Shown here: positions 23,847 to 48,349 of the stretch, one piece after another
How the letters are laid out: each line of letters begins with the position of its first letter
Position numbering within the stretch: the stretch's first letter is position 1
DNA from: Synechococcus sp. RSCCF101
GTDB taxonomy: Bacteria > Cyanobacteriota > Cyanobacteriia > PCC-6307 > Cyanobiaceae
Direction of reading: 5' to 3'
NCBI RefSeq assembly: GCF_008807075.1
Contig: NZ_CP035632.1
Span: 1,550,001 to 1,614,000, forward strand
Length of the DNA: 64,000 nucleotides
Position numbers and translations under genes: made by a program
The notes under the pieces: generated by a model
Databases searched by the model: none
What the model was told of the DNA's origin: nothing
Seen by the model: the letters and a program-made list of their open reading frames with translations, nothing else

Positions 23847-23890
23847 GGGCAGGGGGGAGGGGAAACAGCCATAGGCTGCCTCACAGTCCT

Positions 23891-24748
23891 GTGACAGCCG
23901 TGTTCCGCAACCTTCTGATCGCCGATTCCGGCCAGGGTCATGTCGAGGAGATGGTCCGGATGCTGCTGGATCTGCCCCAGCTGCGGGAGGCCAGACTCAA
24001 CCTGCTCCACGTGGTGGGCGAACAGGGCGCGGAAACGGTCGAGGGGCATCGGCGCGAGGCCGAAGGCCTTGTTTCAGAGGCCGTCAGCCGCATCGGGCTG
24101 GAGCCCGGGCGCGTGAACACGCTGATCCGCCAGGGCGACGCCAAGCAGACCGTTCTCAAGGTGGCCGATGAGGTGGATGCGGATCTGATCGTGATGGGCT
24201 CCCGCGGCCTGGGACGCCTGCAGTCGATCCTGGCCAACAGCGCCAGTCAATACGTCTTCCAGCTCTCCACCCGGCCCATGCTCCTGGTGCGCGACGACCT
24301 TTACGTGCGTCACGTGAACCGTGTCATGGTGGCGGTGGACGGGACAGGCGTGGGGTCCGAGGCCCTCTCAATCGCCTGTCAGTTCGTGCGCGACATCCCG
24401 GGAGGCACCCTGACCGGCGTGCATGTGAGCCGGAGGGACCTGGCGCCGACCCGAGGCGGGTCCCAGCCGGCCGATGCCGTTCTCGAGGCGGCCGTGAAAC
24501 GCGCACGCACCCTCGGCGTGGAGCTCAAACCGATGCACGTCACGGGGGATGTGGGGCGGGCCGTGTGCGAGGCCGCCGAATCCTGCCGGGCTGATCTGGT
24601 GGTGATCGCCTCCCAGGACCGGCGGCCTCTGGTTGCCAGGGGACTGGTCGACCTGGACCGGCTTCTTGGCAGTTCGGTGAGCGACTACATCCGGGTGCAT
24701 GCACCGGCACCCGTTCTGCTCATCCGGGGCGGGACGCTCAGCGCCTGA
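23891..24748 (+). CDS. Tandem universal stress protein (UspA family)
   Basis: Two Usp domains in one 285-residue protein: residues about 1-140 and 145-285. The first domain has the nucleotide-binding-like GSRGLGRLQSILANSASQYV motif; the second has VVIASQDRRPLVARG...GSSVSDYIRVHAPAPVLLIRG. Such proteins bind ATP and respond to stress. GTG 23891 is preferred because the protein then starts right at the domain (VTAVFRNLLIADSG); a longer ORF from 23840 overlaps the divergent thioesterase gene. Confidence 0.87.
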   Translation: MTAVFRNLLIADSGQGHVEEMVRMLLDLPQLREARLNLLHVVGEQGAETVEGHRREAEGLVSEAVSRIGLEPGRVNTLIRQGDAKQTVLKVADEVDADLIVMGSRGLGRLQSILANSASQYVFQLSTRPMLLVRDDLYVRHVNRVMVAVDGTGVGSEALSIACQFVRDIPGGTLTGVHVSRRDLAPTRGGSQPADAVLEAAVKRARTLGVELKPMHVTGDVGRAVCEAAESCRADLVVIASQDRRPLVARGLVDLDRLLGSSVSDYIRVHAPAPVLLIRGGTLSA

Positions 24749-24771: not shown

Positions 24772-24809
24772 CAGACCAACAGCCGTCAGGCCTGACGGCT
24801 GTTGGTCTG
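24772..24809. repeat. Perfect 38-bp palindrome across the psbM 3' end
   Basis: Two 19-base arms (24772-24790 and 24791-24809) are exact reverse complements with no spacer. The right arm covers the last seven codons of psbM and part of an eighth, and the left arm lies downstream of them. It probably ends or protects transcripts from both sides (usp and psbM converge here), although no T run follows it. Confidence 0.85.
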
Positions 24810-24975: not shown

Positions 24976-25443
24976 TCAGTCGTCCGCGTCAGGGGCGGAC
25001 GACTCGGCTGTGGTCTCCGGTTCCGACTCGAGCTCACCGGCATCGGGAGCGGTCACAAGCCCCTCCGGCAGCTCCGGTCCATCCGGCAGGGGAGCCCGCC
25101 TGGCGGCCTCGAGCAGGGACTCGCGATTGGGCAGATCCGCCTGGGGCCGGGTCAGCACGATCAGCGAGCGGTTCACCAGGGCCTGACAGGCCAGACGCCA
25201 CTGGGGAGGCCGCCTGCGGAGCTTGAGATCCTCCACCGGCGTGCGCGGCGAGAGAGCCTCCACCTGAGTGGACTCATCGACGGCGATGAAGCAGGTGATG
25301 CACTGGCCACAGCCGCCGCAGTTGCCCAGGCGGCCCTTCCAGCCATAGAGCTCGACGCCGGCGCGGAGAGCCACCTCGCGCAGGTTCTCGCCCGGCAGGC
25401 AGGGCACATCGCGGCCCTCGCGGACGAAACGGATCACAGGCAT
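24976..25443 (-). CDS. 2Fe-2S ferredoxin-type protein with an acidic C-terminal extension
   Basis: An electron carrier with a plant-type 2Fe-2S fold. The cluster cysteines appear in LGNCGGCGQCITCF and a later WRLACQAL. From ATG 25443 it has 155 residues. Residues 1-90 form the ferredoxin domain, followed by a 60-residue tail rich in Pro, Glu and Asp and likely disordered. It diverges from psbB with 214 bp between starts, and psbM is downstream. Its redox partner is unknown. Confidence 0.88.
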   Translation of the reverse strand: MPVIRFVREGRDVPCLPGENLREVALRAGVELYGWKGRLGNCGGCGQCITCFIAVDESTQVEALSPRTPVEDLKLRRRPPQWRLACQALVNRSLIVLTRPQADLPNRESLLEAARRAPLPDGPELPEGLVTAPDAGELESEPETTAESSAPDADD

Positions 25444-25657
25444 GACCACTCCACGGCGGAGACCCATTGTGTGATGCCCGGGAACGGGCGCATCACGGCT
25501 CATGTCAGGGCATGGGAGAGGCCCCCATCCCACGCCCGGGAGCCATTACGCTCAGCCCTGCATTTCCCTGGGCCCACCTCTTCAACGGCTCCGGCCCAGG
25601 CAGTGCCGCTTCCGCAGCAGACGGAAGCCGATTTCGTTCCTCGGACCTGAAACCCCC

Positions 25658-34150: not shown

Positions 34151-34765
34151 ATGACGCAACCGATCACCCGACTGACTCGACTGCTGTGCGGACGCTTCAG
34201 CAATCAGCAGCAGGCGTTCGACAACCCCCCCCTCTACGCCCACATCCTGGTGCAGGTCCGCCCGCTGCCCCAGCTGGCGCCGGGCTCCCTGCTGCTGGAG
34301 CAGTCCTACGCCCTGGATCCGAGCAAGCCCTACCGAATCCGGGTGCTGCGGGTGGTGAGCGACGAGGCTGGCCTCAGGATCCTCAACCATGGACTGCGGG
34401 ATGAGGAACGCTTCTGGGGCAGCATTGATGATGCCGAGCGTCGCGATGCGATCACCTCCGACGACCTGCGCTACCTCGAGGGGTGCGCCTATCTCGTCCG
34501 GGAGAATGGCAGCGGCTTCGTCGGCGAGGTGGAGCCCGGATGCGGCTGTCTGGTGGAGCGGAAGGGGGCCATCACCTACCTGGTGAGCCGGTTCGAGATC
34601 GACGGCTCGCGGATGCTGACGATCGACCGGGGGCACAGCCCGACCACCCACGAGCAGCTGTGGGGATCCAAGGCCGGTCCGTTCGAATTCGACCGGACCG
34701 ATGATCTCAGCGGAGAGGTGCCGGAGAGCTGGACCCAGACCTGGGAGCGCAGCGGGGTCGCCTGA
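34151..34765 (+). CDS. cpcT: Phycobiliprotein lyase CpcT
   Basis: Attaches phycocyanobilin to Cys153 of the phycocyanin beta chain. It is 204 residues of the CpcT/CpeT family, a beta-barrel lyase. Family features: the N-terminal GRFSNQQQAFDNPP segment, RPLPQLAPGSLLLEQSYA, and PYRIRVLRV. Later LVERKGAITYLVSRFEID is also typical. Three cpcB copies downstream supply the substrate. CpeT, the phycoerythrin counterpart, is unlikely because no phycoerythrin genes are present. Confidence 0.9.
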   Translation: MTQPITRLTRLLCGRFSNQQQAFDNPPLYAHILVQVRPLPQLAPGSLLLEQSYALDPSKPYRIRVLRVVSDEAGLRILNHGLRDEERFWGSIDDAERRDAITSDDLRYLEGCAYLVRENGSGFVGEVEPGCGCLVERKGAITYLVSRFEIDGSRMLTIDRGHSPTTHEQLWGSKAGPFEFDRTDDLSGEVPESWTQTWERSGVA

Positions 34766-34893
34766 CTCCGAGGGGCAAAGGTCACCCCTCGTTGCGGCTG
34801 GTGAAGCTACGTGGAGTGTTTTTTACAGACGACTGCAACAGCCGGCCACACCCCGTACGGTCTGCTGCATTCTCTCGCTCCCCCCTCTCAGAC

Positions 34894-35691
34894 ATGGCGC
34901 TCCCGGTTCTCGAAACACCCTTTGTGAGTCAGAACGCCAGGGTGCACACCTTCACCGCCGGAGGCGATGAAGCACCACGCGTCAGTGAGGCCGGCCTGCA
35001 GGGAGGCCCCTCGGTGATGCGCGGCGTGAGCGTTGAGGAACAGATCAACCAGGCCTATTACCAGCTGTTTTTTCACACCTTCCAGGTTGACCGCGAACCG
35101 GTGCTCGAGTCGCAGCTTCGCGATGGACGCATCACCGTGAAGGAATTCGTGCGTGGCCTGTTGCTCTCGAGCCGCTTCCGCGATGGCTTCTATGGCTGCA
35201 ACAGCAACTATCGGGTGGCGGACCATCTCGTCGGCCGAGTCCTTGGCCGGCAGCCTCACGGTGATCAGGAGCGGATCGCCCTCTCCATCCTGCTGGCCAA
35301 CGGCGGTCTGGAGGGCCTGGTGGATCATCTGCTCGAATCGGAGGAATACGAGCAGGCCTTCGGCGAACACACCGTGCCCTTCCAGCGCAACCGCGTGCTG
35401 GCGGGCCGCGCCACGGGAGATCGTCCCACCAACCAGCGCCTGCCTCGCTACGACGCCTACTGGCGCGACATGTCGGCCCAGCGGGCTCCGGCGGGTGCCC
35501 CAGGCGGTGGCTGGGGCGCCGGCTGGGGTGCGGCGCCGGCGCCGACCGGGCCGGTCTCGGCCGCCTGGCAGGGTGGCCAGCCCCCTCGCATCGCGCTCCA
35601 GATCTGGCTGCTGCTCGGAGCTCTCGGAGCGATCGAACTGGTGCGTGTCCTGGCGACCACGGCCGGGGCGATGCTCAGCACCGGCTCCTGA
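34894..35691 (+). CDS. cpcL: Phycobilisome rod linker with hydrophobic C-terminus (CpcL/CpcG2 type)
   Basis: A 265-residue linker with one phycobilisome linker domain (PF00427, about residues 45-175; QINQAYYQLFFHTFQVDREP, VKEFVRGLLLSSRFRDGFY). A Gly/Ala/Pro-rich spacer follows (about 195-230), then a hydrophobic segment (about 236-262, IALQIWLLLGALGAIEL). That tail is typical of CpcL, which anchors rods to the membrane and passes energy to photosystem I, as opposed to CpcG1, which joins rods to the core. No core-type CpcG is seen in the window. Start ATG 34894. Confidence 0.88.
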   Translation: MALPVLETPFVSQNARVHTFTAGGDEAPRVSEAGLQGGPSVMRGVSVEEQINQAYYQLFFHTFQVDREPVLESQLRDGRITVKEFVRGLLLSSRFRDGFYGCNSNYRVADHLVGRVLGRQPHGDQERIALSILLANGGLEGLVDHLLESEEYEQAFGEHTVPFQRNRVLAGRATGDRPTNQRLPRYDAYWRDMSAQRAPAGAPGGGWGAGWGAAPAPTGPVSAAWQGGQPPRIALQIWLLLGALGAIELVRVLATTAGAMLSTGS

Positions 35692-36076
35692 GTCGCAGCA
35701 GGCCTGAACAGAGCCGAACGGCCAGGGCCCTCCGGGTTGTCATGACAGGCGTGCGCCGTCTTGACGACCCGGAGGGTTCTCCATGTCCGGGTGCCGATCC
35801 TGGACACGGCCAGGGCACGGACATCCGGTCCGGAGCAGTCTGTGACAGTGGATGTAACGATTTGGAGACTGGCGCCTTTGACTCAGCCGAGATCCATAGG
35901 ATCGTGCTGCTCCCATCAGGGCTGGGTATTTCTTCTCCCTTGGCCCGTCACGCCACAGAGCACCACTGCACGATCGTCCACTCTCCGCGCTCTCGTCCGC
36001 CCGCTGAGATGGCATGGCGTCAGCGCCCTGGAACCGTGCAGAGCACAGCCCTTCCCCCAACAGGCACCACTGCCCC
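35692..36076 (+). other. Intergenic region between cpcL and cpcC1
   Basis: 385 bp without a supported gene. It contains a terminator-like hairpin (35728-35776). The remaining 300 bp should hold the promoter of cpcC1-cpcD. The short ORFs here have no conserved features. Confidence 0.6.
35728..35776 (+). terminator. Possible terminator of cpcL
   Basis: Two 14-base arms (35728-35741 and 35763-35776) pair with one G-U, leaving a 21-base loop and followed by TTCT. The long loop makes it weaker than the cpcBA terminators. Confidence 0.5.
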
Positions 36077-36922
36077 ATGACTCTCGCGAACGCGTCGTAT
36101 CTAGGCATTGAGCGATTTGCCTCCGACAGAAATCGTGAAAACTGGACCAACGGTTCCGAGCGTGACAAGTCAACGCTGATCCGGGCCGCCTACCAGCAGG
36201 TCTTCGGTTACCAGTACATCCTTGACAGCGATCGTCTCGACGGACCGGAATCACTGTTCCGCCGTGGCTATCTGAGCGTGCGGGAACTGGTGCGTCAACT
36301 GGCCAAGAGCGGCCTCTACCGCCAGCGTTTCTTCGAGAACACCAACCCCTATCGCTTCATCGAGCTCAACCACAAGCATCTGCTGGGTCGCGCTCCCCAG
36401 AACAAAGCGGAGATGCTGCGCCACTTCACCATCCTGCAGGACGAGGGCTTCGACGCCGAGATCGACTCCTACATCGACAGCGAGGAGTACCAGAACCGCT
36501 TCGGCGAAGAAGTGGTGCCCTACCTGCACGGCTGGAACTACTCGGTTGGCCAGCAGGGCCTGCAGTTCTCCTACATGCTTCAGCTCACCCGGGGCGTCTC
36601 GGCCTCTGTGAAGGGCGACATCTGCAAGAACCAGTCCAGGCTGAATCCCTCGGTTCACAGCGAGAGCCCGGTGCCGGTGGTCAGCCCCGATGCCAAGGGC
36701 GCCGTCTTCCGGAAGGTGATGAAGGATGGCATCACGCGTCAGGGCGTTGGATCGGGCGAGGAAGGCCGCACCTTCAGGGTGGAGATCTCAGGCTTCAACA
36801 ACTACAGGCTGCACAAGCGCAGCAACCGCGTTCGCTTCATCCCCTTCAACAAGCTGCTGAAGTATCAACAGCAGATCCAACGGGAAGGCGGCAGGATCGC
36901 CAGCATCACACCGGTGAACTGA
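36077..36922 (+). CDS. cpcC1: Phycocyanin rod linker CpcC (first copy)
   Basis: Joins phycocyanin hexamers along the rod. It is 281 residues from ATG 36077. The N-terminal linker domain (PF00427, about 20-150) has AYQQVFGYQYI, ELVRQLAKSGLYRQRFFEN and [19 protein letters not shown]-terminal CpcD-like domain (about 225-281) has [19 protein letters not shown] and GGRIASITPV. cpcD follows 66 bp later. Compared with CpcC2 it differs most in the inter-domain region (about residues 180-225). Confidence 0.94.
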   Translation: MTLANASYLGIERFASDRNRENWTNGSERDKSTLIRAAYQQVFGYQYILDSDRLDGPESLFRRGYLSVRELVRQLAKSGLYRQRFFENTNPYRFIELNHKHLLGRAPQNKAEMLRHFTILQDEGFDAEIDSYIDSEEYQNRFGEEVVPYLHGWNYSVGQQGLQFSYMLQLTRGVSASVKGDICKNQSRLNPSVHSESPVPVVSPDAKGAVFRKVMKDGITRQGVGSGEEGRTFRVEISGFNNYRLHKRSNRVRFIPFNKLLKYQQQIQREGGRIASITPVN

Positions 36923-36988
36923 ACGGTCGTCCGACGTTCTGATCACGTCCATCCAATCGCCACTGTCAACCAACGCCCCCATGCCGTC

Positions 36989-37249
36989 ATGAAGGTCTCC
37001 GCAGGCAATCGCTCCACCACAGACACCGGAGACCGTCAGGTCTCCCTCCTGGTGACCGGCATCGCCAACAACGACTATCTGCGCAGCGCGGATACCACAC
37101 TCAAGGTGTCGTATTCGCGCATGAACGAGACCATGCGCATGGTGCAGCGCATGGGAGGGCGGATCACGGCAGTCACCGTCTGCGGTGGTGACCTCGGACA
37201 TCCCCAGACGGAGCACGAGTCCCACAAGGCTGAATCGTCAGACGATTGA
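36989..37249 (+). CDS. cpcD: Rod-capping linker CpcD
   Basis: A small linker that ends phycocyanin rods. It is 86 residues with the CpcD domain (about 15-65): VSLLVTGIANNDYLRSADTT and SRMNETMRMVQRMGGRITAVTV. It forms one unit with cpcC1 and is followed by a strong terminator, so it is not co-transcribed with cpcBA by default. An acidic His-rich tail extends beyond the domain. Confidence 0.93.
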   Translation: MKVSAGNRSTTDTGDRQVSLLVTGIANNDYLRSADTTLKVSYSRMNETMRMVQRMGGRITAVTVCGGDLGHPQTEHESHKAESSDD

Positions 37250-37618
37250 GTCAGCCTGGCCAGGTTGGTGGTCCGCTCGACGCAATCGAACGGACCACAC
37301 GGCTCTGACCATGCATCAGCCATTTCGGCGTCGTCTCCTGAGTCCCTTCATCCCACGATGAAGGGACTTTTTCATGGGCTTCGGGACCAACGGAAGACAG
37401 GACAGTCAGCAAATGACCGTTTGTAACAACAGCCACAGACCGCCTGAGAGCTGATGAAAAATAGCTGGGTGCCATGAATGCCTCGCTTCGGACGTTCTGT
37501 CTGACAGTTCAGGTTCATCGGCTTGAGGAGCAGGACGTTCCAGAACCGTTCACACGGCTGAACCAGGCCTCACTCCTCACCAGACCCCTTCCGACGAGAC
37601 CACCCGGAGTTTCTTTCA
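37250..37618 (+). other. Intergenic region between cpcD and cpcBA copy 1
   Basis: 369 bp without a gene. It holds an 8-bp inverted repeat (37268-37298), the cpcD terminator (37341-37373) and then about 245 bp upstream of cpcB1. Its upstream sequence differs from that of copies 2 and 3 except for the last 20 bases before ATG, which are identical and include the ribosome-binding site CCGGAG. Confidence 0.6.
37341..37373 (+). terminator. Terminator of cpcC1-cpcD
   Basis: A perfect 12-bp stem (37341-37352 / 37357-37368) with a 4-base loop, followed by TTTTT. Confidence 0.92.
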
Positions 37619-38137
37619 ATGTTCGACGCCTTCACCAAGGTCGTTGCGCAGGCTGACGCCCGCGGCGAATTCATCAGCGCCGGTCAGATCGACGCGCTTG
37701 CCTCCATGGTTGCTGAAAGCAACAAGCGCATGGACACCGTCAATCGCATCACCTCCAACGCTTCCGCGATCGTCACCAGCGCTGCTCGCGAACTCTTCGC
37801 TCAGCAGCCCGCTCTGATCGCTCCCGGTGGTAACGCCTACACCCACCGTCGCATGGCTGCCTGCCTCCGCGACATGGAAATCATCCTCCGCTACGTCACC
37901 TACGCCATCTTCACCGGTGACGCCTCCGTCCTCGAAGATCGCTGCCTCAACGGTCTGCGTGAGACCTACCTCGCCCTCGGCGTTCCCGGCGCTTCCGTCG
38001 CCGAAGGCGTCCGCAAAATGAAGGATGCCGCCATCGGTATCGCCAACGACAGCAACGGCATCACCCCCGGTGACTGCTCCGCCATCATGTCTGAAGTCGG
38101 CACCTACTTCGACCGCGCTGCCGCCGCTGTCGCCTGA
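37619..38137 (+). CDS. cpcB: Phycocyanin beta chain (copy 1 of 3)
   Basis: 172-residue phycobiliprotein; with CpcA it forms the (alpha-beta) discs of rods. Bilin sites: Cys82 in [12 protein letters not shown] and Cys153 in PGDCSAI. The Asn72 that is methylated in phycocyanins is present (PGGNAYTHR). The protein is identical in all three copies. Leucine is coded mostly by CTC, unlike the CTG used by neighbouring genes, which suggests strong selection for expression. cpcA follows 69 bp later. Confidence 0.98.
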
Positions 38138-38206
38138 GCCTCTCGGCCTCGTCTGCTTCAACGTCTCCCCTGACGTTCACCCCTTATCAATCTCTCTTCC
38201 AACACG

Positions 38207-38695
38207 ATGAAGACCCCTCTCACAGAAGCCGTCGCCGCTGCTGATTCTCAGGGCCGTTACCTCAGCAACACCGAAATCAACTCCGCTTTCGGTCGTTTTG
38301 AGCGCGCCAAGAATGCCCTCGAGGCTGCCAAGGCCCTCACCAGCAACGCCGATTCCCTGGTGAACGGTGCCGCTCAGGCCGTCTACAACAAGTTCCCCTA
38401 CACCACCCAGATGCAGGGCCCGAACTACGCTGCTGATCAGCGTGGCAAGGAGAAGTGCGCTCGTGACATCGGTTACTACCTGCGCATGGTCACCTACTGC
38501 CTCGTTGCCGGTGGCACCGGACCCATGGATGAGTACCTCATCGCCGGTCTCGATGAAATCAACCGTGCCTTTGAGCTCTCCCCCTCCTGGTACGTTGAAG
38601 CCCTCAAGTACATCAAGGCCAACCACGGCATCAGCGGTGACCCCGGTGTGATCGCCAACAACTACATCGATTACGCCATCAACGCCCTCGTCTGA
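38207..38695 (+). CDS. cpcA: Phycocyanin alpha chain (copy 1 of 3)
   Basis: 162-residue alpha subunit. The single bilin attaches at Cys84 in [15 protein letters not shown], the site served by CpcE/CpcF. Starts [20 protein letters not shown]. The second cysteine in VTYCLVAGG is usual in this family. The protein is identical to copies 2 and 3. A strong terminator follows 83 bp after the stop. Confidence 0.98.
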
Positions 38696-38778
38696 GCATC
38701 CCATCGGCCAGGTCATGTCCTCAACTCGAAGCAGATCCATCTGGCCGCAGGATGCTCCAGCCGGAGCCACCATCAGCC

Positions 38779-38801
38779 GGGGGCCTTTGGCCCCCTTTTT
38801 T
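38779..38801 (+). terminator. Terminator of cpcBA unit 1
   Basis: A 7-bp GC stem with a TTT loop (38779-38795), followed by six T. Confidence 0.93.
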
Positions 38802-38971
38802 GATGGGCCGGCTCAGAGTTGGACGGGCGACAGCTGCGCCGCACAACCGGAATGGAAGCCAGGCAAGTATGAGAAGGTGTAACAAAGACGACGCATGCGC
38901 AAGGTCACGATCAGGAAGTGCACATAAGCTCTGATCGGTTCTGATCAACCGGTCCTCACACCCCTTCACTC

Positions 38972-39823
38972 ATGGCGCTCCTCAACGCTCCCTATCTCGG
39001 CATCGAGCGATTCTCAGCCAACCGGAACAATGAGAACTGGTCGGTCAGCTCGGCGCAGGATCGGGAAGCCGTGATCCAGGCCGTCTACCGCCAGGTGCTG
39101 GGATTCCAGTACGTGATGGACAGTGAGCGACTGACCGGCGCAGAGTCGCTGTTCCGCAATGGCTATCTCACCGTGCGGGAGTTCGTGCGCGCTGTGGCCA
39201 AGAGCGGCTTGTACAGGGAGCGGTTCTTCGAGAACTGCAACCCTTACCACTTCATTGAGCTCAACCACAAACACCTGCTGGGCCGGGCTCCGCAGAACAA
39301 GGCGGAGATGCTCAGGCACTTCACAATCCTGCAGGAGGAAGGCGTTGATGCTGAGATCGACTCCTACATCGACAGCAACGAATACCAGGAGCGCTTCGGC
39401 GAACAGGGCGTGCCCTACATCCATGGCTGGGGCTACTCCAGAGGTCAGGAAGGTCGCCAGTTCTCCTGGCTGATGCAACTCGCCCGCGGTTCAGCGGCGT
39501 CGGTCAAGGGTGACCTGGCCGGCACCAACTTCCGTCTGGGCAAGGCCCTGCATCAGGACCGTGCCGTGCCCGTGGTCAGCCCGAATGCCAAGGGGTCCGC
39601 ATTCCAACCGGCTCAGGTGCCGAATGAGAGCATCACCACCATGGCTCAGGGCATTGGCCAGAAAGCACGGGTGTATCGACTCGAGATCACCGGACTGAAC
39701 AACTACCGCCTCCACAAGCGCAGCAACACGGTGCGCTTCGTGACCTTCGACAAGATGCTCGAAACCCAGCGGATAATTCATCGCCAGGGTGGACGTGTCG
39801 CCAGCGTGACACCCGTCAGCTGA
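38972..39823 (+). CDS. cpcC2: Phycocyanin rod linker CpcC (second copy)
   Basis: A 283-residue rod linker with the same two-domain plan as CpcC1: PF00427 domain ([45 protein letters not shown]) and a CpcD-like C-terminus ([29 protein letters not shown]). It is closer to CpcC1 than to CpcC3 at the C-terminus. It has its own terminator at 39890 and sits alone between cpcBA units 1 and 2, so it is probably transcribed from its own promoter or by read-through. Confidence 0.94.
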
Positions 39824-39889
39824 GCCAGGCGCCCACACAACCCGGAGCTGTGGATCGCACCGTTCCGAGGAACGGTGTTCAGGCCTCAC

Positions 39890-39910
39890 GCCCGGCTTCG
39901 GCCGGGCTTT
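39890..39910 (+). terminator. Terminator of cpcC2
   Basis: GCCCGGC and GCCGGGC pair around a TTCG loop (39890-39907), followed by TTT. A second hairpin without a T run lies just upstream (39858-39877). Confidence 0.75.
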
Positions 39911-40091
39911 GCTCTGTCTGGCGGCAGGGATGCCTGCGTGGATGACCCTTTGTGAACACGGTCCCGGATTCCTCCCGCATTGCTTCAGGATATCTGCGCT
40001 GCCGAGATCCCCTTCGGGCTGCCGGCCGCTCACCTTTCCCACCGACTGTTCTTCGGAACAGTTCCAACGAAACCACCCGGAGTTTCTTTCA

Positions 40092-40610
40092 ATGTTCGAC
40101 GCCTTCACCAAGGTCGTTGCGCAGGCTGACGCCCGCGGCGAATTCATCAGCGCCGGTCAGATCGACGCGCTTGCCTCCATGGTTGCTGAAAGCAACAAGC
40201 GCATGGACACCGTCAATCGCATCACCTCCAACGCTTCCGCGATCGTCACCAGCGCTGCTCGCGAACTCTTCGCTCAGCAGCCCGCTCTGATCGCTCCCGG
40301 TGGTAACGCCTACACCCACCGTCGCATGGCTGCCTGCCTCCGCGACATGGAAATCATCCTCCGCTACGTCACCTACGCCATCTTCACCGGTGACGCCTCC
40401 GTCCTCGAAGATCGCTGCCTCAACGGTCTGCGTGAGACCTACCTCGCCCTCGGCGTTCCCGGCGCTTCCGTCGCCGAAGGCGTCCGCAAAATGAAGGATG
40501 CCGCCATCGGTATCGCCAACGACAGCAACGGCATCACCCCCGGTGACTGCTCCGCCATCATGTCTGAAGTCGGCACCTACTTCGACCGCGCTGCCGCCGC
40601 TGTCGCCTGA
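40092..40610 (+). CDS. cpcB: Phycocyanin beta chain (copy 2 of 3)
   Basis: Same 172-residue protein as copy 1, with Cys82, Cys153 and Asn72 intact. The upstream region differs from copy 1: a hairpin with a TTCG loop lies at 40045-40062, which could affect mRNA stability or translation. It is followed by cpcA 69 bp later. The three copies cannot be told apart by protein, so their separate regulation must come from upstream DNA. Confidence 0.98.
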
Positions 40611-40679
40611 GCCTCTCGGCCTCGTCTGCTTCAACGTCTCCCCTGACGTTCACCCCTTATCAATCTCTCTTCCAACACG

Positions 40680-41168
40680 ATGAAGACCCCTCTCACAGAA
40701 GCCGTCGCCGCTGCTGATTCTCAGGGCCGTTACCTCAGCAACACCGAAATCAACTCCGCTTTCGGTCGTTTTGAGCGCGCCAAGAATGCCCTCGAGGCTG
40801 CCAAGGCCCTCACCAGCAACGCCGATTCCCTGGTGAACGGTGCCGCTCAGGCCGTCTACAACAAGTTCCCCTACACCACCCAGATGCAGGGCCCGAACTA
40901 CGCTGCTGATCAGCGTGGCAAGGAGAAGTGCGCTCGTGACATCGGTTACTACCTGCGCATGGTCACCTACTGCCTCGTTGCCGGTGGCACCGGACCCATG
41001 GATGAGTACCTCATCGCCGGTCTCGATGAAATCAACCGTGCCTTTGAGCTCTCCCCCTCCTGGTACGTTGAAGCCCTCAAGTACATCAAGGCCAACCACG
41101 GCATCAGCGGTGACCCCGGTGTGATCGCCAACAACTACATCGATTACGCCATCAACGCCCTCGTCTGA
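40680..41168 (+). CDS. cpcA: Phycocyanin alpha chain (copy 2 of 3)
   Basis: Same 162-residue protein as copy 1, bilin site Cys84 intact. The 3' flank, including the terminator at 41252, is shared with copy 1 and not with copy 3. It pairs with the beta chain of copy 2 in one transcript and lies upstream of cpcC3. Confidence 0.98.
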
Positions 41169-41251
41169 GCATCCCATCGGCCAGGTCATCTCCTCAACTC
41201 GAAGCAGATCCATCTGGCCGCAGGATGCTCCAGCCGGAGCCATCATCAGCC

Positions 41252-41274
41252 GGGGGCCTTTGGCCCCCTTTTTT
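41252..41274 (+). terminator. Terminator of cpcBA unit 2
   Basis: The same 7-bp GC hairpin with TTT loop and six T as unit 1, at 41252-41274. Confidence 0.93.
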
Positions 41275-41600
41275 AATGGGCCGGCTCAGGGCGATTCGAA
41301 GCGAACCGGCACGGTCGGGGCTTGAGTCGAGAACATAAAGTCTCTGTGAAGGTTCCCTGTGAGTAGATCAAAACACCACTACACTCCCCGAGTCGCTTCA
41401 CGTTGATGCCACTGCGGCGTTGACGCTCACAGGCACTTGTCATCTGATCGGTCCGCTCATCGGGATCGATCAGAGAGATTGAGTCAAAGAAGCACTCCGC
41501 TGGACTCGCCAGGATCCGTCGTCTGCACGCCGACCAGCGCATGACGATGTCCGCCTGAACGAGTCAACTGGACGTCTCCTCCCATCACTTTCCGCACGCC

Positions 41601-42458
41601 ATGGCTCTGCTTCAGGCCTCGTATCTCGGCATTGAACGGTTCGCGAACGATCGCGATCGTGAATCCTGGCAGGTCGCAGCAGAACAGGATCGTGAGACGA
41701 TCATCCGTGCCGTCTATCGGCAGGTGCTGGGCCAGCAGTATCTGATGGAGAACGAGCGTCTCAGCGGAGCCGAGTCGCTGTTCCGCAACAACTACCTCAC
41801 CGTCCGGGAGCTGGTTCGCACGGTCGCCAAGAGTGGCCTGTATCGGGAGCGCTTCTTCGAGAACTGCAATCCCTATCGCTTCATTGAGCTCAACCACAAG
41901 CACCTTCTCGGACGGGCTCCGCAGAACCGCGAAGAGATGCTGGCTCACTTCACCATCCTGCAGGAGCAGGGCGTTGACAGCGAGATCGATTCCTACATCG
42001 ACAGCAGTGAGTACGTGGCCCGCTTCGGCGAAGATGGCGTGCCCTACATCCACGGCTGGGACTACACACCCGGGCATCAGGGCCGCCAGTTCTCCTGGCT
42101 GATGCAGCTCGCCCGCGGATCGGCCGCGTCGGTCAAGGGTGATGCCTCCGGCACCCAGTTCCGCCTGGGTGCGGCACTGCACCAGAACCGACCCGCCCCG
42201 GTGGTGAGCCCGAATGCCACCCCGCGACTTGGCGTGGCAGGCCTGCATCGCTCCAGCGAACTCAGAGGTCCCACCGGCAACCGTGATGCGGGCAGCTCGG
42301 GAGGACGCGTCGCCACGATCACCATCAGCGGTGTGGCGCGCAACAGCGTGGTGCGCAGCGCCGATTACGTGATCCGTGTGCCGGTGTCCCGCATGAATGA
42401 AGCGCTTCAGCGTGCCAACCGCCTGGGTGGCAAGGTGCGCGAAATCACCGTGCAGTGA
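41601..42458 (+). CDS. cpcC3: Phycocyanin rod linker with a CpcD-type C-terminal domain (third CpcC)
   Basis: A 285-residue rod linker. The N-terminal PF00427 domain is the standard CpcC type ([60 protein letters not shown]). The C-terminal domain (about 228-285) instead resembles the CpcD cap: SVVRSADYVIRVPVSRMNEALQR then RLGGKVREITV, and lacks the [10 protein letters not shown] block of CpcC1 and CpcC2. It may combine linker and cap roles, or place phycocyanin at a different rod position. A 312-bp gap precedes it. Confidence 0.92.
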   Translation: MALLQASYLGIERFANDRDRESWQVAAEQDRETIIRAVYRQVLGQQYLMENERLSGAESLFRNNYLTVRELVRTVAKSGLYRERFFENCNPYRFIELNHKHLLGRAPQNREEMLAHFTILQEQGVDSEIDSYIDSSEYVARFGEDGVPYIHGWDYTPGHQGRQFSWLMQLARGSAASVKGDASGTQFRLGAALHQNRPAPVVSPNATPRLGVAGLHRSSELRGPTGNRDAGSSGGRVATITISGVARNSVVRSADYVIRVPVSRMNEALQRANRLGGKVREITVQ

Positions 42459-42827
42459 GCCATCGTTTCTGACCACCGCAAAGGGAGGGATCCAGCCTCC
42501 CGGTGCCCGGCCATGCAGCCTTCCATCGGCTGCCTGGCCGGGCTTGTGTTATGGAGATCCGTCCTCTCAGCCCGGAGGATGTGGGCGCGAGTGCTGCGGT
42601 GCGTTGTGGCCTGAAGGCGGCAGAACCGCTCGGCCCGGCAGGCGCCGGGCGCCCACAAACGGATGGCTTCAACCGGGATGACCCTTTGTGAACACGGTCC
42701 CGGATTCCTCCCGCATTGCTTCAAGATATCTGCGCTGCCGAGATCCCCTTCGGGCTGCCGGCCGCTCACCTTTCCCACCGACTGTTCTTCGGAACAGTTC
42801 CAACGAAACCACCCGGAGTTTCTTTCA
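42459..42827 (+). other. Intergenic region between cpcC3 and cpcBA copy 3
   Basis: 369 bp. It includes a terminator-like hairpin (42505-42543) and, from 42551, a short plus-strand ORF running to 42691 that starts MEIRPLSPEDV, which looks like the beginning of an acetyltransferase-type protein but has no continuation. From 42676 on it is the same upstream flank as cpcB copy 2. Confidence 0.55.
42505..42550 (+). terminator. Possible terminator of cpcC3
   Basis: 16-base arms (42505-42520 / 42528-42543) pair with one mismatch around a 7-base loop, followed by TTGTGTT. The T run is broken, so termination may be partial. Confidence 0.6.
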
Positions 42828-43346
42828 ATGTTCGACGCCTTCACCAAGGTCGTTGCGCAGGCTGACGCCCGCGGCGAATTCATCAGCGCCGGTCAGATCG
42901 ACGCGCTTGCCTCCATGGTTGCTGAAAGCAACAAGCGCATGGACACCGTCAATCGCATCACCTCCAACGCTTCCGCGATCGTCACCAGCGCTGCTCGCGA
43001 ACTCTTCGCTCAGCAGCCCGCTCTGATCGCTCCCGGTGGTAACGCCTACACCCACCGTCGCATGGCTGCCTGCCTCCGCGACATGGAAATCATCCTCCGC
43101 TACGTCACCTACGCCATCTTCACCGGTGACGCCTCCGTCCTCGAAGATCGCTGCCTCAACGGTCTGCGTGAGACCTACCTCGCCCTCGGCGTTCCCGGCG
43201 CTTCCGTCGCCGAAGGCGTCCGCAAAATGAAGGATGCCGCCATCGGTATCGCCAACGACAGCAACGGCATCACCCCCGGTGACTGCTCCGCCATCATGTC
43301 TGAAGTCGGCACCTACTTCGACCGCGCTGCCGCCGCTGTCGCCTGA
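42828..43346 (+). CDS. cpcB: Phycocyanin beta chain (copy 3 of 3)
   Basis: Same 172-residue protein as copies 1 and 2, with both bilin cysteines and Asn72. The upstream flank equals that of copy 2, including the hairpin about 30 bases before the start. This copy is the nearest to the lyase genes cpcE and cpcF. Confidence 0.98.
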
Positions 43347-43415
43347 GCCTCTCGGCCTCGTCTGCTTCAACGTCTCCCCTGACGTTCACCCCTTATCAAT
43401 CTCTCTTCCAACACG

Positions 43416-43904
43416 ATGAAGACCCCTCTCACAGAAGCCGTCGCCGCTGCTGATTCTCAGGGCCGTTACCTCAGCAACACCGAAATCAACTCCGCTTTCG
43501 GTCGTTTTGAGCGCGCCAAGAATGCCCTCGAGGCTGCCAAGGCCCTCACCAGCAACGCCGATTCCCTGGTGAACGGTGCCGCTCAGGCCGTCTACAACAA
43601 GTTCCCCTACACCACCCAGATGCAGGGCCCGAACTACGCTGCTGATCAGCGTGGCAAGGAGAAGTGCGCTCGTGACATCGGTTACTACCTGCGCATGGTC
43701 ACCTACTGCCTCGTTGCCGGTGGCACCGGACCCATGGATGAGTACCTCATCGCCGGTCTCGATGAAATCAACCGTGCCTTTGAGCTCTCCCCCTCCTGGT
43801 ACGTTGAAGCCCTCAAGTACATCAAGGCCAACCACGGCATCAGCGGTGACCCCGGTGTGATCGCCAACAACTACATCGATTACGCCATCAACGCCCTCGT
43901 CTGA
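43416..43904 (+). CDS. cpcA: Phycocyanin alpha chain (copy 3 of 3)
   Basis: Same 162-residue protein as copies 1 and 2, bilin site Cys84 intact. Its 3' flank is different from the other two copies and carries its own terminator 23 bp after the stop; cpcE starts 120 bp after the stop. The lyase genes would thus depend on read-through or a separate promoter. Confidence 0.98.
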
Positions 43905-43927
43905 GCCCTCAGACCGCGATGATCAAC

Positions 43928-43952
43928 GGGGGGCCAGGAGCCCCCCTTTTTT
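43928..43952 (+). terminator. Terminator of cpcBA unit 3
   Basis: A 7-bp GC stem (43928-43934 / 43940-43946) with a 5-base loop, followed by six T. It lies between cpcA3 and cpcE and probably sets the lyase genes at lower expression than cpcBA. Confidence 0.93.
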
Positions 43953-44024
43953 CATGACTCTGCAACCCATCCCATCGGACCCCGGTGCTCCGGGCCGGTG
44001 GGCACCGCAAGCAGGAGCGCAACC

Positions 44025-44825
44025 GTGAGTACCGGTGAACCGATCGATGAGCAGGAGGCCCTGGCACGCCTCCGCCAGACGGAGGACACCTCCGCTCAGT
44101 ACTACGCCGCCTGGTGGGTCGGCCGCATGCGGAGCCGCCATCCGGAGGTGATTCCTCTTCTGATCCGTGCGCTGGCCCAGCGGCAGCCGCGCCAACCCGA
44201 CAGCGGCGTCGAGGCCAATGCTGTGGCCCGCAACGCGGCCCGCAGCCTGGGCAAGCTCCGAGCCGCGCAGGCCGTGCCCGAACTGCTGCAGGTGTTGGAG
44301 GATCCCGATTACGGGCTGAGGGAAGCCGCCGCCCGCGCCCTCGGTGACATCGGTGACGCCCGCGCCCTGCCCGGCCTCTGCCGCCGGCTGGAAGGAGGCG
44401 TGACGGGAGCCGGCGCCCCGGCAGCCGGGACACCGTTTCTGCAGGAGCCCTGCGAAGCCCTGCTGGAGGCGCTGGGCGACATCGGCGTTGCCGATCAGGC
44501 TGTTCTCGATGCCGTGCAGCCGTTCGAGAAGCACGAGCGCCCGATCATCCGCAGCGCCGCATGGCGGGCATTGCTGATCCTCACCGGGGAGAGCCGCTGG
44601 GCCGGGAAGCTGCTGGAACTGCTCCAGGATGGCTCTCTGCAGGTGCGGCGAGCCGCCCTGATGGATCTCGGTGCCGTGGGCTGGCGAAACTCACTGGAGC
44701 CGATCCAGCGCACCCAGGCGGAGAACAGCCTCAAGCTGATCGCACTGCGTGGCCTCGCCGAACATCCCCGCGGAGAGGGGCCGGATCTGGAGCGTGTGCT
44801 GGAGGCGATGGATGCCCTGCTCTGA
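44025..44825 (+). CDS. cpcE: Phycocyanin alpha-chain bilin lyase subunit CpcE
   Basis: With CpcF it attaches phycocyanobilin to Cys84 of CpcA. The protein, 266 residues from GTG 44025, consists of HEAT-like repeats (LRQTEDTSAQYYAAWWVGRM, AARSLGKLRAAQAVPELL, AARALGDIGDARALPGL). GTG 44025 is chosen because AGGAG lies 8 bases upstream; a GTG at 43998 also exists. cpcF starts 69 bp later. Phycoerythrocyanin or fused RpcG-type lyases are less likely given the cpcA target next door. Confidence 0.92.
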   Translation: MSTGEPIDEQEALARLRQTEDTSAQYYAAWWVGRMRSRHPEVIPLLIRALAQRQPRQPDSGVEANAVARNAARSLGKLRAAQAVPELLQVLEDPDYGLREAAARALGDIGDARALPGLCRRLEGGVTGAGAPAAGTPFLQEPCEALLEALGDIGVADQAVLDAVQPFEKHERPIIRSAAWRALLILTGESRWAGKLLELLQDGSLQVRRAALMDLGAVGWRNSLEPIQRTQAENSLKLIALRGLAEHPRGEGPDLERVLEAMDALL

Positions 44826-44894
44826 CACCCGCTCTGTGCCAGAACGGTCCATGCCCAGCTCCAGCCGGCCGGCAGCGCCGCCGCACGGACACCC

Positions 44895-45572
44895 ATGACA
44901 GTCACGCCAGCCAGGGTTCAGGCGGCCATCGCCGCGGTGAATGAGGCCTCAAGTGCACAGGCCCTGCTGATGGCCAGCCGTGCCCTCGCCGCCATGGGGG
45001 ATCCCGCTGCCATCCCGACCCTGATCACGATCCTCGGGTTCAACAACCCCGGTGCCGCCGTGGCCGCTGTGGACGGCCTCGTGGCCATCGGCGAACCAGC
45101 CGTGCTGCCGCTGCTCGGCAATCTGGACGCCCGCAACTACGGAGCCCGGGCCTGGGCGATCCGGGCGCTGGCCGGCCTGCGGGACGTGCGAGGGCTGGAG
45201 GTGCTGGTGGACTCGCTGCTGACGGACGTGGGGCCGAGCGTCCGCAGGGCCGCCGCCTGCGGCCTGGGGGGTCTGCAGCTGCAGGCCGCTGGGACGACAG
45301 GCGAGTCGAAGGCGTTGACCCAGTGTGTGGCGGCTCTCTGTCAGGGCGCGGACGACGGGGAATGGGTGGTCCGCTACGCGTCCGTGGTGGGCCTAGAACG
45401 CCGCCTCAGCCAGCCTCCGTTCGGCGCCGATGCACAGCGCAGCGCACTGGCGGTGCTGCGCCGATGCAGCGACCCCGAGCTGGAAGAGGTGGCCGTGGTG
45501 CGGGAGCGGGCACGCCGGGCTCTGCAGCGGCTCGACGCCGCCACCACTCCAAGTCTCCTGCCCCCAGCCTGA
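44895..45572 (+). CDS. cpcF: Phycocyanin alpha-chain bilin lyase subunit CpcF
   Basis: Partner of CpcE, 225 residues, HEAT-like repeats throughout (RALAAMGDPAAIPTLITIL, VDGLVAIGEPAVLPLLGNL, AIRALAGLRDVRGLEVLVDSL). It begins MTVTPARVQAAIAAVNEASS. It ends 4 bases before the phosphatase gene, so cpcE-cpcF-ptp may be one transcript. Confidence 0.93.
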   Translation: MTVTPARVQAAIAAVNEASSAQALLMASRALAAMGDPAAIPTLITILGFNNPGAAVAAVDGLVAIGEPAVLPLLGNLDARNYGARAWAIRALAGLRDVRGLEVLVDSLLTDVGPSVRRAAACGLGGLQLQAAGTTGESKALTQCVAALCQGADDGEWVVRYASVVGLERRLSQPPFGADAQRSALAVLRRCSDPELEEVAVVRERARRALQRLDAATTPSLLPPA

Positions 45573-45576
45573 ACCG

Positions 45577-46050
45577 ATGCGCCTCCTGTTCGTCTGCATG
45601 GGCAACATCTGCCGCTCCCCCGCGGCGGAGGGGATCATGCTGCAGCTCCTCGGCGAGCACGGTCTGCTGGAGCGCGTGACGGTGGATTCCGCAGGCACGG
45701 GCGGCTGGCACGCCGGACAGCCCGCTGACCGCCGCATGCAGGCCGCCGCCGAACGCCGCGGCGTGCACCTGCCCAGCCGGGCGCGCCAGGTGGTGCCCGA
45801 GGACCTGGACCGCTTCGATCGCATCCTCGCCATGGACAGCGACAACCTGGCCGCCCTCTCCGCGCTGCAGCGGCGGCACGGGGGCGGGGCGATCGTGGAG
45901 CCCATGCTCCGCTATTCAGGCCGGGGCGGCAGCCTCGATGTGCCCGACCCGTACTACGGGGGCGATCAGGGCTTCGAGCTGGTGCTCGATCTGCTTGAAG
46001 AGGCCTGCGAGGGCCTGCTGCATCAGGTGTTGCTCAGGGGCGACGACTGA
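45577..46050 (+). CDS. ptpA: Low-molecular-weight protein-tyrosine phosphatase
   Basis: 157 residues with the P-loop CMGNICRSPAAEG (the C-x5-R-S signature) near residue 7 and the general-acid aspartate in VPDPYYGGDQGF. It removes phosphate from phosphotyrosine proteins; targets here are unknown. It starts 4 bases after cpcF. I recall that this gene marks the right edge of rod regions in marine Synechococcus. Its 3' end overlaps the convergent panC-cmk gene by 28 bases. Confidence 0.93.
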   Translation: MRLLFVCMGNICRSPAAEGIMLQLLGEHGLLERVTVDSAGTGGWHAGQPADRRMQAAAERRGVHLPSRARQVVPEDLDRFDRILAMDSDNLAALSALQRRHGGGAIVEPMLRYSGRGGSLDVPDPYYGGDQGFELVLDLLEEACEGLLHQVLLRGDD

Positions 46051-47702
46051 TCCTCGGCGGGCGGGGGCCAGGCCTCCTCCGGCACCCGCTGCCGCACCAG
46101 ATCCACGAGCCGCTCGATCACCTCCTCCACCGTCAGGCCATCGGTGATCAGATCGAGCGCGTCATCCGCGCGCCGCAGCGGTGCCACCTCCCGCGAGCGA
46201 TCCAGGTGGTCGCGCTCCTCGATCTGCTGCTCGAGCAGGGCCAGCTCCGGCACCTCGAATCCCCGCTCACGCAGATCCCCGGCCCGTCGTCGGGCCCGCT
46301 CCGCCACGGTGGCGGTGAGGAAGATCTTGACCTCCGCGTCCGGAAACACGGCCGTTCCGACATCACGACCTTCCGCCACCAGGCCACCGCGCTGCCCCAT
46401 CCGCTGCTGCTGGGCCGTGAGCGCCTCGCGAACGCAGGCGTGGGCCGCGACATGGGACACGGCCGCCGTGACCTCGGGCGTGCGAATGGCGTCGGTGATC
46501 TCGTGACCGTTGAGCGTGACGCGCTGGGCGCCGCCGGCCTCGAGGCTGAGGCTGAGGTCGAGATCCCGCAGCAGCGGAGCGACCGCCGCGGCCGATGCGG
46601 CGTCCGCGCCCTGGCGCAGCACCCACCAGGTAAGCGCGCGGTACATGGCGCCGGTGTCCAGGTAGAGGAGTCCGAGGCGGGAGGCGAGAGCCCGGGTCAC
46701 CGTGCTCTTGCCGGCTCCGGCGGGGCCGTCGATGGCGACGATCGGAGCTCGGGACATCAGCAGGAGGTGATCGATGAGGCGGGTGGGGCCGCAGTGCACG
46801 GCAGCGGCCAGCAGGGCCATGCCGGGCGTCGCCGGGGGAGCCGCGCGGGGGGAAGGCTCGGGCGAGTCTGGCCTGCCGGCGAGCGGAGGCAGCGCCTGCC
46901 GGTGGGAGACGAGGCTGTGGGCGTCCACGCAGTCGAGATACTCGACCCTGAGCCCGCCCGCCTCCAGCTCGCTCGTCAGGTCTCCCAGGACGCGGGCCAG
47001 AGCACCCGGATCACCGCTGCCGAGCGCCCCAGCGACCGCAGGCGCGGCACGGCGAAGGGAGCGGGGCAGGCCTGAGGCCAGCCGGCGCTCGGCAGCACTG
47101 AGGTAGCGGTTGCGGGAACTCAGGGCGAGGCCATCGACCTCGCGCACCGTGGCGCAGCTGCGCAGGCGCACCGGCAGGGCCAGATCGCCCACCACCCGGC
47201 GCAGCACCTGAAGCTGCTGCCAGTCCTTCTCACCGAAGACCATCAGATCGGGACGGATCAGGGCGATCAGGCGTGCCACGACGGTGGCCACCCCCTCGAA
47301 GTGACCGGGGCGATGGGCCCCGCAGAGACTGCGGCAGAGGGTTTCCGGCGGCAGGAGCCGGGTCAGGCTCCCTTCTCCGCCCGGGAACAGCTCGCCGGTC
47401 TCCGGAGCAAAGACGGCGTCGACCCCCGCCTCGCGGACACGCTCCAGATCCGCCTCCAGATCGCGCGGATAGCGATCGAAGTCCTCGCCGGGGGCGAACT
47501 GCAGCGGGTTGACGAAGATGGTGAGCAGCAGCGCGGCCGGCCGGCAAGGCGAGGCTTCCCTGGCCGCACGCACCAGGGCGAGGTGTCCCTCATGCAGCGC
47601 GCCCATGGTGGGCACCACGTGAACGGGCCGGCCGGCCTCAGCCTGGCGGCGGCGCCAGTGATGGAGGGCCTGGCGGCGGCGCAGAAGCGCCGGCTCGCTC
47701 AC
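46023..47702 (-). CDS. panC-cmk: Bifunctional pantothenate synthetase / cytidylate kinase
   Basis: A 559-residue fusion typical of cyanobacteria. The N-terminal half (about 1-280) is PanC, joining pantoate and beta-alanine (VPTMGALHEGHLALV, FVNPLQFAPGEDFDRYPR, RPDLMVFGEKDWQQLQ). The C-terminal half (from about 320) is CMP kinase: the P-loop AIDGPAGAGKSTVTRALA, YLDTGAMYRALTW and EGRDVGTAVFPDA. The linker between them is Pro-rich. It overlaps the rlpA-like gene by 4 bases. Confidence 0.96.
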   Translation of the reverse strand: MSEPALLRRRQALHHWRRRQAEAGRPVHVVPTMGALHEGHLALVRAAREASPCRPAALLLTIFVNPLQFAPGEDFDRYPRDLEADLERVREAGVDAVFAPETGELFPGGEGSLTRLLPPETLCRSLCGAHRPGHFEGVATVVARLIALIRPDLMVFGEKDWQQLQVLRRVVGDLALPVRLRSCATVREVDGLALSSRNRYLSAAERRLASGLPRSLRRAAPAVAGALGSGDPGALARVLGDLTSELEAGGLRVEYLDCVDAHSLVSHRQALPPLAGRPDSPEPSPRAAPPATPGMALLAAAVHCGPTRLIDHLLLMSRAPIVAIDGPAGAGKSTVTRALASRLGLLYLDTGAMYRALTWWVLRQGADAASAAAVAPLLRDLDLSLSLEAGGAQRVTLNGHEITDAIRTPEVTAAVSHVAAHACVREALTAQQQRMGQRGGLVAEGRDVGTAVFPDAEVKIFLTATVAERARRRAGDLRERGFEVPELALLEQQIEERDHLDRSREVAPLRRADDALDLITDGLTVEEVIERLVDLVRQRVPEEAWPPPAEDQSSPLSNT

Positions 47703-48349
47703 CGAAGCACTTCCAGCTTCACATCAGCGATCCCGCTGGAGATAAGGCCCAGTTCGGTGGCCGCACCGTGAGCGAGGTCGATCACGCGGGCTCCGGCGAA
47801 CGGACCACGATCGTTGATGCGCACCACGGTCGAGCGACCGTTCCAGAGGTTGGTGACCCGCACGCGGGTTCCGAAGGGGAGGGTGCGATGGGCGGCGGTG
47901 ACGGTGCCGGGGCGGAAGACCTCCCCACTCGCCGTGCGGTTGCCGTAGAAGCCGGGTCCATACCAGCTGGCCTCGCCGGTGATCACCTGAACCACGTCGC
48001 TGACGGGCTCGGGTTCGACTTCCGGTTCAGGCAACACGGCAGCCTCAGGCTCGACCGCCGGGTTCGCGGGTTCGGAGTCCACCGGCTCGGCCAGGGCTGC
48101 CGCAGGATCGCTGGGTTCAGCCACCTCGGCAGGTGGAGTCAGAACAGCACCTGTGGCTGAATCCGGCACGGTGACCTCGGAGTCAGGCGTGGCCGCCTCA
48201 TCCACCAGCGGAACCGACTCGAGGAGAGTGGCCATCGTGGCCTGCATCGGCTGACCGTCCGCGAAGCCGTCGGCAACACCGGGAACGATGGGACCGGCAA
48301 GGAGAAGTCCGGCGCTGAGGCTGAGGAGGCGGTACGGAATCTGGATCAT
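47699..48349 (-). CDS. rlpA: RlpA-like septal/cell-wall protein (double-psi beta-barrel)
   Basis: 216 residues: a signal peptide (about 1-26), an acidic Pro/Glu/Ala-rich spacer (about 45-120) and a C-terminal RlpA barrel (about 125-216; GEASWYGPGFYGNRTASGEVF, LPFGTRVRVTNLWNGRSTVVRINDRGPF, ARVIDLAHGAATELG). Some relatives cleave naked glycan strands at the septum; the catalytic Asp (NDRGPF) is present. The signal peptide has no clear lipobox. It is coupled to panC-cmk by a 4-base overlap. Confidence 0.9.
   Translation of the reverse strand: MIQIPYRLLSLSAGLLLAGPIVPGVADGFADGQPMQATMATLLESVPLVDEAATPDSEVTVPDSATGAVLTPPAEVAEPSDPAAALAEPVDSEPANPAVEPEAAVLPEPEVEPEPVSDVVQVITGEASWYGPGFYGNRTASGEVFRPGTVTAAHRTLPFGTRVRVTNLWNGRSTVVRINDRGPFAGARVIDLAHGAATELGLISSGIADVKLEVLR

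Follow-up and report, generated by a model that had tools for sequence, protein, structure and literature searches.

Two identical copies of cpcBA, the gene pair for the beta and alpha subunits of phycocyanin, the main blue antenna pigment, are already known in strains related to the one considered here. Synechococcus WH5701 and RS9917 have two identical cpcB-A operons, and a cpcC/D chimera named cpcCIII has been described in WH5701 (PMC2246261). Synechococcus elongatus UTEX 2973 also carries two cpcBA copies, with identical coding sequences and divergent 5′ untranslated regions and promoters (PMC6091082), and its linker genes cpcC1, cpcC2 and cpcD are grouped together (PMC10433846). For psbA and psbD, long-lasting concerted evolution is known (PMC6053082). 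Here we describe a stretch of 64,000 nucleotides from Synechococcus sp. RSCCF101 (NZ_CP035632.1, positions 1,550,001 to 1,614,000), which we call the window and whose own numbering is used throughout. It holds a phycocyanin rod gene region with three cpcBA units. What we add is this third copy, evidence from a comparison of genomes, a relative whose array has six copies, and the presence inside the array of a chimeric linker gene, cpcC3. Our reading, to which we give a probability of roughly 0.87, is that recombination keeps cpcBA identical within an array whose linkers have diverged, and that occasional unequal crossing-over changes the number of units.

Three identical copies and a mosaic middle copy

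The source genome is a single contig of 2,984,853 bp, coded G000 in the comparison with relatives, where it is the sole representative of its genus. Positions 34151–45572 of the window form the rod gene region of a phycocyanin-rich picocyanobacterium, in which tandem cpcBA units have different rod-linker genes between them; the order is cpcT, cpcG, cpcC1, cpcD, cpcBA, cpcC2, cpcBA, cpcC3, cpcBA, cpcE, cpcF. The products of cpcB and cpcA score above the equivalog cut-offs of NCBIfam TIGR01339 (330.4 bits, cut-off 279.3) and TIGR01338 (299.1 bits, cut-off 269.45), respectively.

A first-pass annotation, made from the letters of the window alone, had claimed that the three cpcBA copies are identical and that the middle one combines the flanks of the other two. 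A base-by-base alignment bears this out. There is no difference inside cpcBA among the three copies, with 0 mismatches over 1,099 bp of cpcB, cpcA and the spacer, and the identical tract runs from −20 to +1078 relative to the cpcB ATG (at 37619, 40092 and 42828), ending 2 bases past the cpcA stop. An exact threefold repeat of 1.1 kb is far beyond chance. A search of the source genome at E up to 0.001 returned these three copies and two short matches of 72–73%. Beside the identical cpcBA genes, the rod linkers share 78–80% nucleotide identity over their aligned parts, which argues that the array is old and that homogenisation is confined to the pigment genes.

The flanks follow a different pattern. 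Upstream, copy 2 matches copy 3 over 152 bp with a single mismatch at −104; downstream, it matches copy 1 for 121 bp from the cpcA stop, the terminator-like hairpin included, and here 3 bases differ, besides a fourth at the edge. Copies 1 and 3 share only 20 bases of flank upstream and 2 bp past the cpcA stop. Thus the middle copy shares its 5′ flank with the copy after it and its 3′ flank with the copy before it. This fits the geometry predicted by unequal crossing-over between copies, an event that would have to be read back from the present arrangement.

The extent of divergence between copies 1 and 2 also varies along the unit. Their 3′ flanks differ at 3 of 121 positions, against 1 of 1,102 for the core plus leader (Fisher p 0.0035), and the same contrast is seen over 428 near-neutral sites (p 0.035). 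Third codon positions and the spacer show no difference, the sole near-neutral difference being in the leader. Because the 3′ flank is more diverged than the core, copying of the flank probably predates the last homogenisation of the core, and the contrast fits successive conversion tracts of differing extent.

Copies group by genome, flanks by position

For comparison, 38 places were fetched from the genomes of relatives. Ten of these (L100–L105, L118–L120 and L125), none of which has two full cpcBA pairs at more than 75% identity, were dropped before copies were compared, and the comparison covers 29 genomes including the source, of which 22 have at least two cpcBA units. There are two units in sixteen of the 22, three in G000, G084, G143 and G252, four in G094 and six in G215. 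Copies within a genome differ at 0–6 positions per 1,048–1,096 bp and are all identical in 10 of the 22 (those of G216, for example, differ at 2 of 1,062 bases); the best full-length cpcBA match in any genome other than the source is 86% identical. The third copy of G252, whose cpcB has a one-base gap reflecting a frameshift or an assembly error (blastn 99.9% over 1,160 bp), was excluded from the tree and from the difference counts, and the single copy of G074 was excluded from the tree.

In the cpcBA tree (59 rows), each of the 22 genomes with more than one copy has its copies in a single group. Grouping by genome needs 21 changes, which is the least possible for all groups, against a mean of 44.2 after shuffling. 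A constraint uniting the first copies of all 22 genomes is rejected by the approximately unbiased (AU) test (p-AU 1.5e-9, with 11 sets of identical rows unconstrained).

The 5′ flanks behave in the opposite way. Flanks of 300 bp, from −360 to −61 of each unit, were compared for seven related genomes of one genus. Between genomes, flanks at the same position never score below 110 (42 pairs), whereas flanks at different positions never exceed 34 between genomes (42 pairs) or 30 within a genome (7 pairs). For the cpcBA cores of the same seven genomes, the median score is 1062 within a genome against 970–971 between genomes. Since the flanks match by position whilst the cores match within the genome, both positions predate the split of these genomes and the genes were homogenised later.

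The linker genes point the same way. In the linker tree, cpcC1 of 26 genomes forms one clade (support 100/100) apart from cpcC2, which argues against homogenisation among the linkers; the cpcC2 rows themselves do not form one clade, and the cpcC1 and chimera clades branch from among them. Taken with the positional 5′ flanks, the separation of the cpcC1 clade from cpcC2 indicates that the duplication is older than the genomes concerned. Concerted evolution of the cpcBA copies, most simply through gene conversion, is therefore supported by these comparisons of sequence. The earlier suggestion of gene conversion, under which the genes stay identical as the flanks drift, is upheld by the grouping by genome, by the positional flanks and by the cpcC1 clade.

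Further cpcB and cpcBA genes are seen elsewhere in the relatives. An extra isolated cpcB (matches of ∼520 bp at 82–89%) occurs in 17 of 58 genomes, for example G215, G143, G156 and G009, and a genome search found none in the source. G112 has a diverged cpcBA pair, 78–79% identical to that of the window, at G112:C1:1021050-1022093, about 9 kb from an isolated cpcB at 1011260-1011779, and the same layout is found at G005:C18:56492-57549 and 47673-48191. The diverged pair in G112, which is additional to the array copy, seems to have escaped homogenisation.

The third unit, the chimeric linker and other explanations

Mosaic middle copies are not peculiar to the window. They recur in G215, G084 and G252, and, without linkers, among copies 2–4 of G094. 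In G215 (locus L090, G215:C1:526001-546000) six cpcBA units, separated by cpcC2, recur at regular intervals of 2,437 bp. Two versions of the copy, one base apart, take turns along this array, suggesting that a block of two units was amplified. In G084 (L088) and G252 (L116) whole cpcC2-cpcBA units are repeated at 99.6–100% identity. The repeated unit thus carries the same linker in G215, G084 and G252; in the window it does not, the second linker there being cpcC3. Stepwise tandem duplication, which had also been proposed from the window alone, is accordingly borne out in part: the mosaic middle copy agrees with it, but the linker before copy 3 is not a duplicate of cpcC2.

The product of cpcC3 combines a CpcC-like N-terminus with a CpcD-like C-terminus, as in cpcCIII. 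The N-terminus is nearest to cpcC2 (score 857, against 736 to cpcC1) and the C-terminus is nearest to CpcD (133, against 46 to cpcC2 and 55 to cpcC1; the maximum in 300 shuffles was 45). In the linker tree cpcC3 joins 20 genes of 19 relatives (94/93; 96% of 200 bootstrap trees); its branch is long, and the tree tool flags the placement as unsure. In the window cpcC3 lies between copies 2 and 3, whereas its relatives lie outside the array in all 20 loci (19 genomes) compared. These are about 36–38 kb from the array on the same contig in G112, G239 and G220, and elsewhere far away or on another contig, such as contig C9 of G216, which is not the rod-region contig. No cpcC3-like gene was found at E up to 1e-30 in the array-bearing genomes G203, G215 and G252. 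At the same threshold the source genome yields just cpcC1, cpcC2 and cpcC3, so it seems to be without a second cpcC3 copy. In the neighbourhoods of the 20 outside relatives few neighbours are conserved beyond close relatives (8 of the 20 listed), and the search named no donor site. A further linker gene, at G162:C1:2609160-2609879, is 60% identical to residues 1–245 of cpcC3 and has one in-frame TAG stop.

Together these observations suggest the following course of events. The ancestral array, to judge from the relatives, probably had two units in the order cpcC1-cpcD-cpcBA-cpcC2-cpcBA-cpcEF. Gene conversion would homogenise cpcB, cpcA and the spacer, a step suggested by the pattern across genomes, and conversion tracts would stop at flanks too dissimilar for pairing. 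Occasional unequal crossing-over of unit 1 with unit 2 would create a new middle unit that takes its 5′ side from unit 2 and its 3′ side from unit 1. In the source genome the cpcC3 that precedes the third unit may either have been brought into the array or have replaced a second cpcC2. A likely benefit would be a larger supply of a single uniform subunit pair, to which several transcription units contribute under control regions that differ in part.

Several points weigh against this account. The relatives were picked by their best DNA matches and are not a random sample. The group formed by the copies of G257 is weakly supported (90/35), and for the subset of seven genomes the AU test gives a borderline result (p 0.047, with 3 sets of identical rows unconstrained). 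Across all 16 two-copy genomes the median 5′ flank score is 27 at the same position and 20 at different positions, these flanks being too diverged to reveal orthology of position. In G143, with three copies, a mosaic is not clear. As cpcC3 rather than a second cpcC2 stands before copy 3, tandem duplication or unequal crossing-over is not by itself sufficient for the third unit, and a comparison of the flanks of cpcC3 and of the cpcBA units with the arrays and outside loci of relatives gave no match that explains a capture, those of cpcC3 having no counterpart in the sets compared.

Of the other explanations, the one that survives best is recent tandem duplication alone, in which the copies of each lineage are identical through very recent origin and without conversion. 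It fits G215, with its six near-perfect 2,437 bp units, linker included, as well as the repeated whole units of G084 and G252. For the window it is contradicted by the old linkers that adjoin the identical cpcBA genes: these linkers are about 20% different, and cpcC1 and cpcC2 belong to separate old groups. The orthology of the second-position flanks across seven genomes and the greater divergence of the 3′ flank of copies 1 and 2 than of their core also speak against it, and we consider it improbable.

We hold it to be very unlikely that the array is an assembly artefact, produced by expansion of a repeat or by a consensus that made the copies identical. Identical repeats of 1.1 kb can break or collapse draft assemblies, and in 12 of the 22 named cpcE loci (L036–L057) the 1.5 kb upstream of cpcE do contain a contig end. 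In 9 of them it falls within the last cpcBA genes or directly ahead of these, and in the other 3 it separates cpcA from cpcE. One of the twelve, L052, departs from the gene order of the arrays in that a cpcT-like gene follows cpcA and precedes cpcE, which is also the case in marine strains such as WH7803 (L054). Such ends near cpcE would be expected if identical units break short-read assemblies, which is possible, the frequency being given here with no control for contig ends in general. However, the unique cpcC2 and cpcC3 between the copies make expansion unlikely, each copy having its own linker and flanks in a one-contig genome; collapse would reduce the copy count, not increase it, and comparable arrays are found in other genomes.

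That purifying selection alone maintains the identity, without recombination, we regard as barely credible: these are abundant, conserved proteins, and genes of this kind are often held to constraints on codon use, yet third codon positions and the spacer are identical between copies 1 and 2 when the best full-length match elsewhere is 86%.

Going beyond homogenisation by recombination, one may speculate that the array is a self-adjusting gene-dosage device, in which recombination between identical units readily shifts the copy number (from 1 to 6 among the genomes seen) and can capture outside linkers such as cpcC3. We think this doubtful; were it true, phycocyanin output and rod composition would differ from one population to another, and inside each, over ecological time whilst the subunits stayed uniform.

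The rod region and its place among known systems

The features of the rod region are collected in the table. All hallmarks of such a region are present, namely cpcT, the linkers, cpcBA, cpcE and cpcF, and a phosphotyrosine phosphatase gene, and relatives have a similar order. Named relatives retrieved by cpcE include Synechococcus, Cyanobium and Vulcanococcus. The phosphatase gene was detected in relatives by likeness to the open reading frame (ORF) at 45430–46050 of the window, whose name is taken from the description in the available text of PMC2246261 and not from a family search. An Rfam search gave no match inside 34151–45572, and a sigma-70 scan of 36900–44100 gave no promoter-like site. 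Outside the region, a perfect 38-bp palindrome at 24772–24809, possibly a two-way terminator, lies between the ORF at 23840–24748 (+) and the ORF at 24976–25533 (−).

Table. Features of the phycocyanin rod gene region, in window coordinates
Feature	Position	Strand	Evidence and remarks
cpcT-like bilin lyase, 5′ part of region	34151..34765	+	Pfam CpeT/CpcT, E 1.3e-53; NCBIfam, no match
cpcG-like rod-core linker, start codon uncertain	34792..35691	+	Pfam PBS_linker_poly without CpcD domain; NCBIfam CpcG models below cut-off
cpcC1 rod linker	36077..36922	+	Pfam PBS_linker_poly and CpcD; 26-row cpcC1 clade, 100/100
cpcD small rod-capping linker	36989..37249	+	Pfam CpcD, E 1.9e-9
Copy 1, identical tract	37599..38697	+	cpcB 37619-38137, cpcA 38207-38695; base-by-base comparison, NCBIfam
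Copy 1, 3′ flank common to copy 2	38698..38816	+	Holds terminator-like hairpin 38779-38795
cpcC2 rod linker	38972..39823	+	Nucleotide identity in the aligned parts: 79% with cpcC1, 80% with cpcC3
Copy 2, 5′ flank common to copy 3 (1 mismatch)	39940..40071	+	Base-by-base comparison
Copy 2, identical tract	40072..41170	+	cpcB 40092-40610, cpcA 40680-41168
Copy 2, 3′ flank common to copy 1	41171..41289	+	Holds terminator-like hairpin 41252-41268
cpcC3, CpcC/CpcD chimeric linker within array	41601..42458	+	Terminus scores; linker tree
Copy 3, 5′ flank common to copy 2	42676..42807	+	Base-by-base comparison
Copy 3, identical tract	42808..43906	+	cpcB 42828-43346, cpcA 43416-43904
Copy 3, own terminator-like hairpin	43928..43946	+	3′ flank differs from copies 1 and 2
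cpcE phycocyanobilin lyase subunit	43998..44825	+	NCBIfam CpcE best match, below cut-off (235.1 of 330 bits); HEAT_PBS repeats; expected place
cpcF phycocyanobilin lyase subunit	44895..45572	+	NCBIfam CpcF, 225.6 bits, cut-off 220

The locus is of interest chiefly for three features: its homogenised pigment genes are interspersed with linkers that have escaped homogenisation, copy number ranges from 1 to 6 among the genomes seen, and a chimeric linker lies within the array. The first of these makes the locus a clean natural system for gene conversion between neighbours. There are also practical consequences. Since cpcBA serves as a marker of picocyanobacterial diversity (e.g. PMC10808157), homogenised multi-copy arrays could bias diversity counts, and can cause short-read assemblies to break off at the genes of the main antenna.

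As far as literature titles and the opening lines of abstracts go, we found no report of conversion or concerted evolution of cpcBA, or of multi-copy or tandem cpcBA, which does not imply that none exists. The terms 'gene conversion' and 'concerted' do not occur in the available text of PMC2246261, nor do 'cpc' and 'phycocyanin' in the main text of PMC6053082.

Compared with the described systems, psbA and psbD resemble the window in that duplicated photosynthesis genes are alike within a genome and hold conserved positions, but they form no tandem array interrupted by linkers (PMC6053082). UTEX 2973 has two cpcBA copies near cpcE and the linkers cpcC1, cpcC2 and cpcD (PMC6091082, PMC10433846); it differs from the window in belonging to another lineage, in having two units and in keeping its three linkers together (PMC10433846). 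WH5701 and RS9917 share with the window the cpcBA units, the rod linkers and cpcE and cpcF, and WH5701 shares a cpcC/D chimera as well; whereas they have two units, the window has three (PMC2246261).

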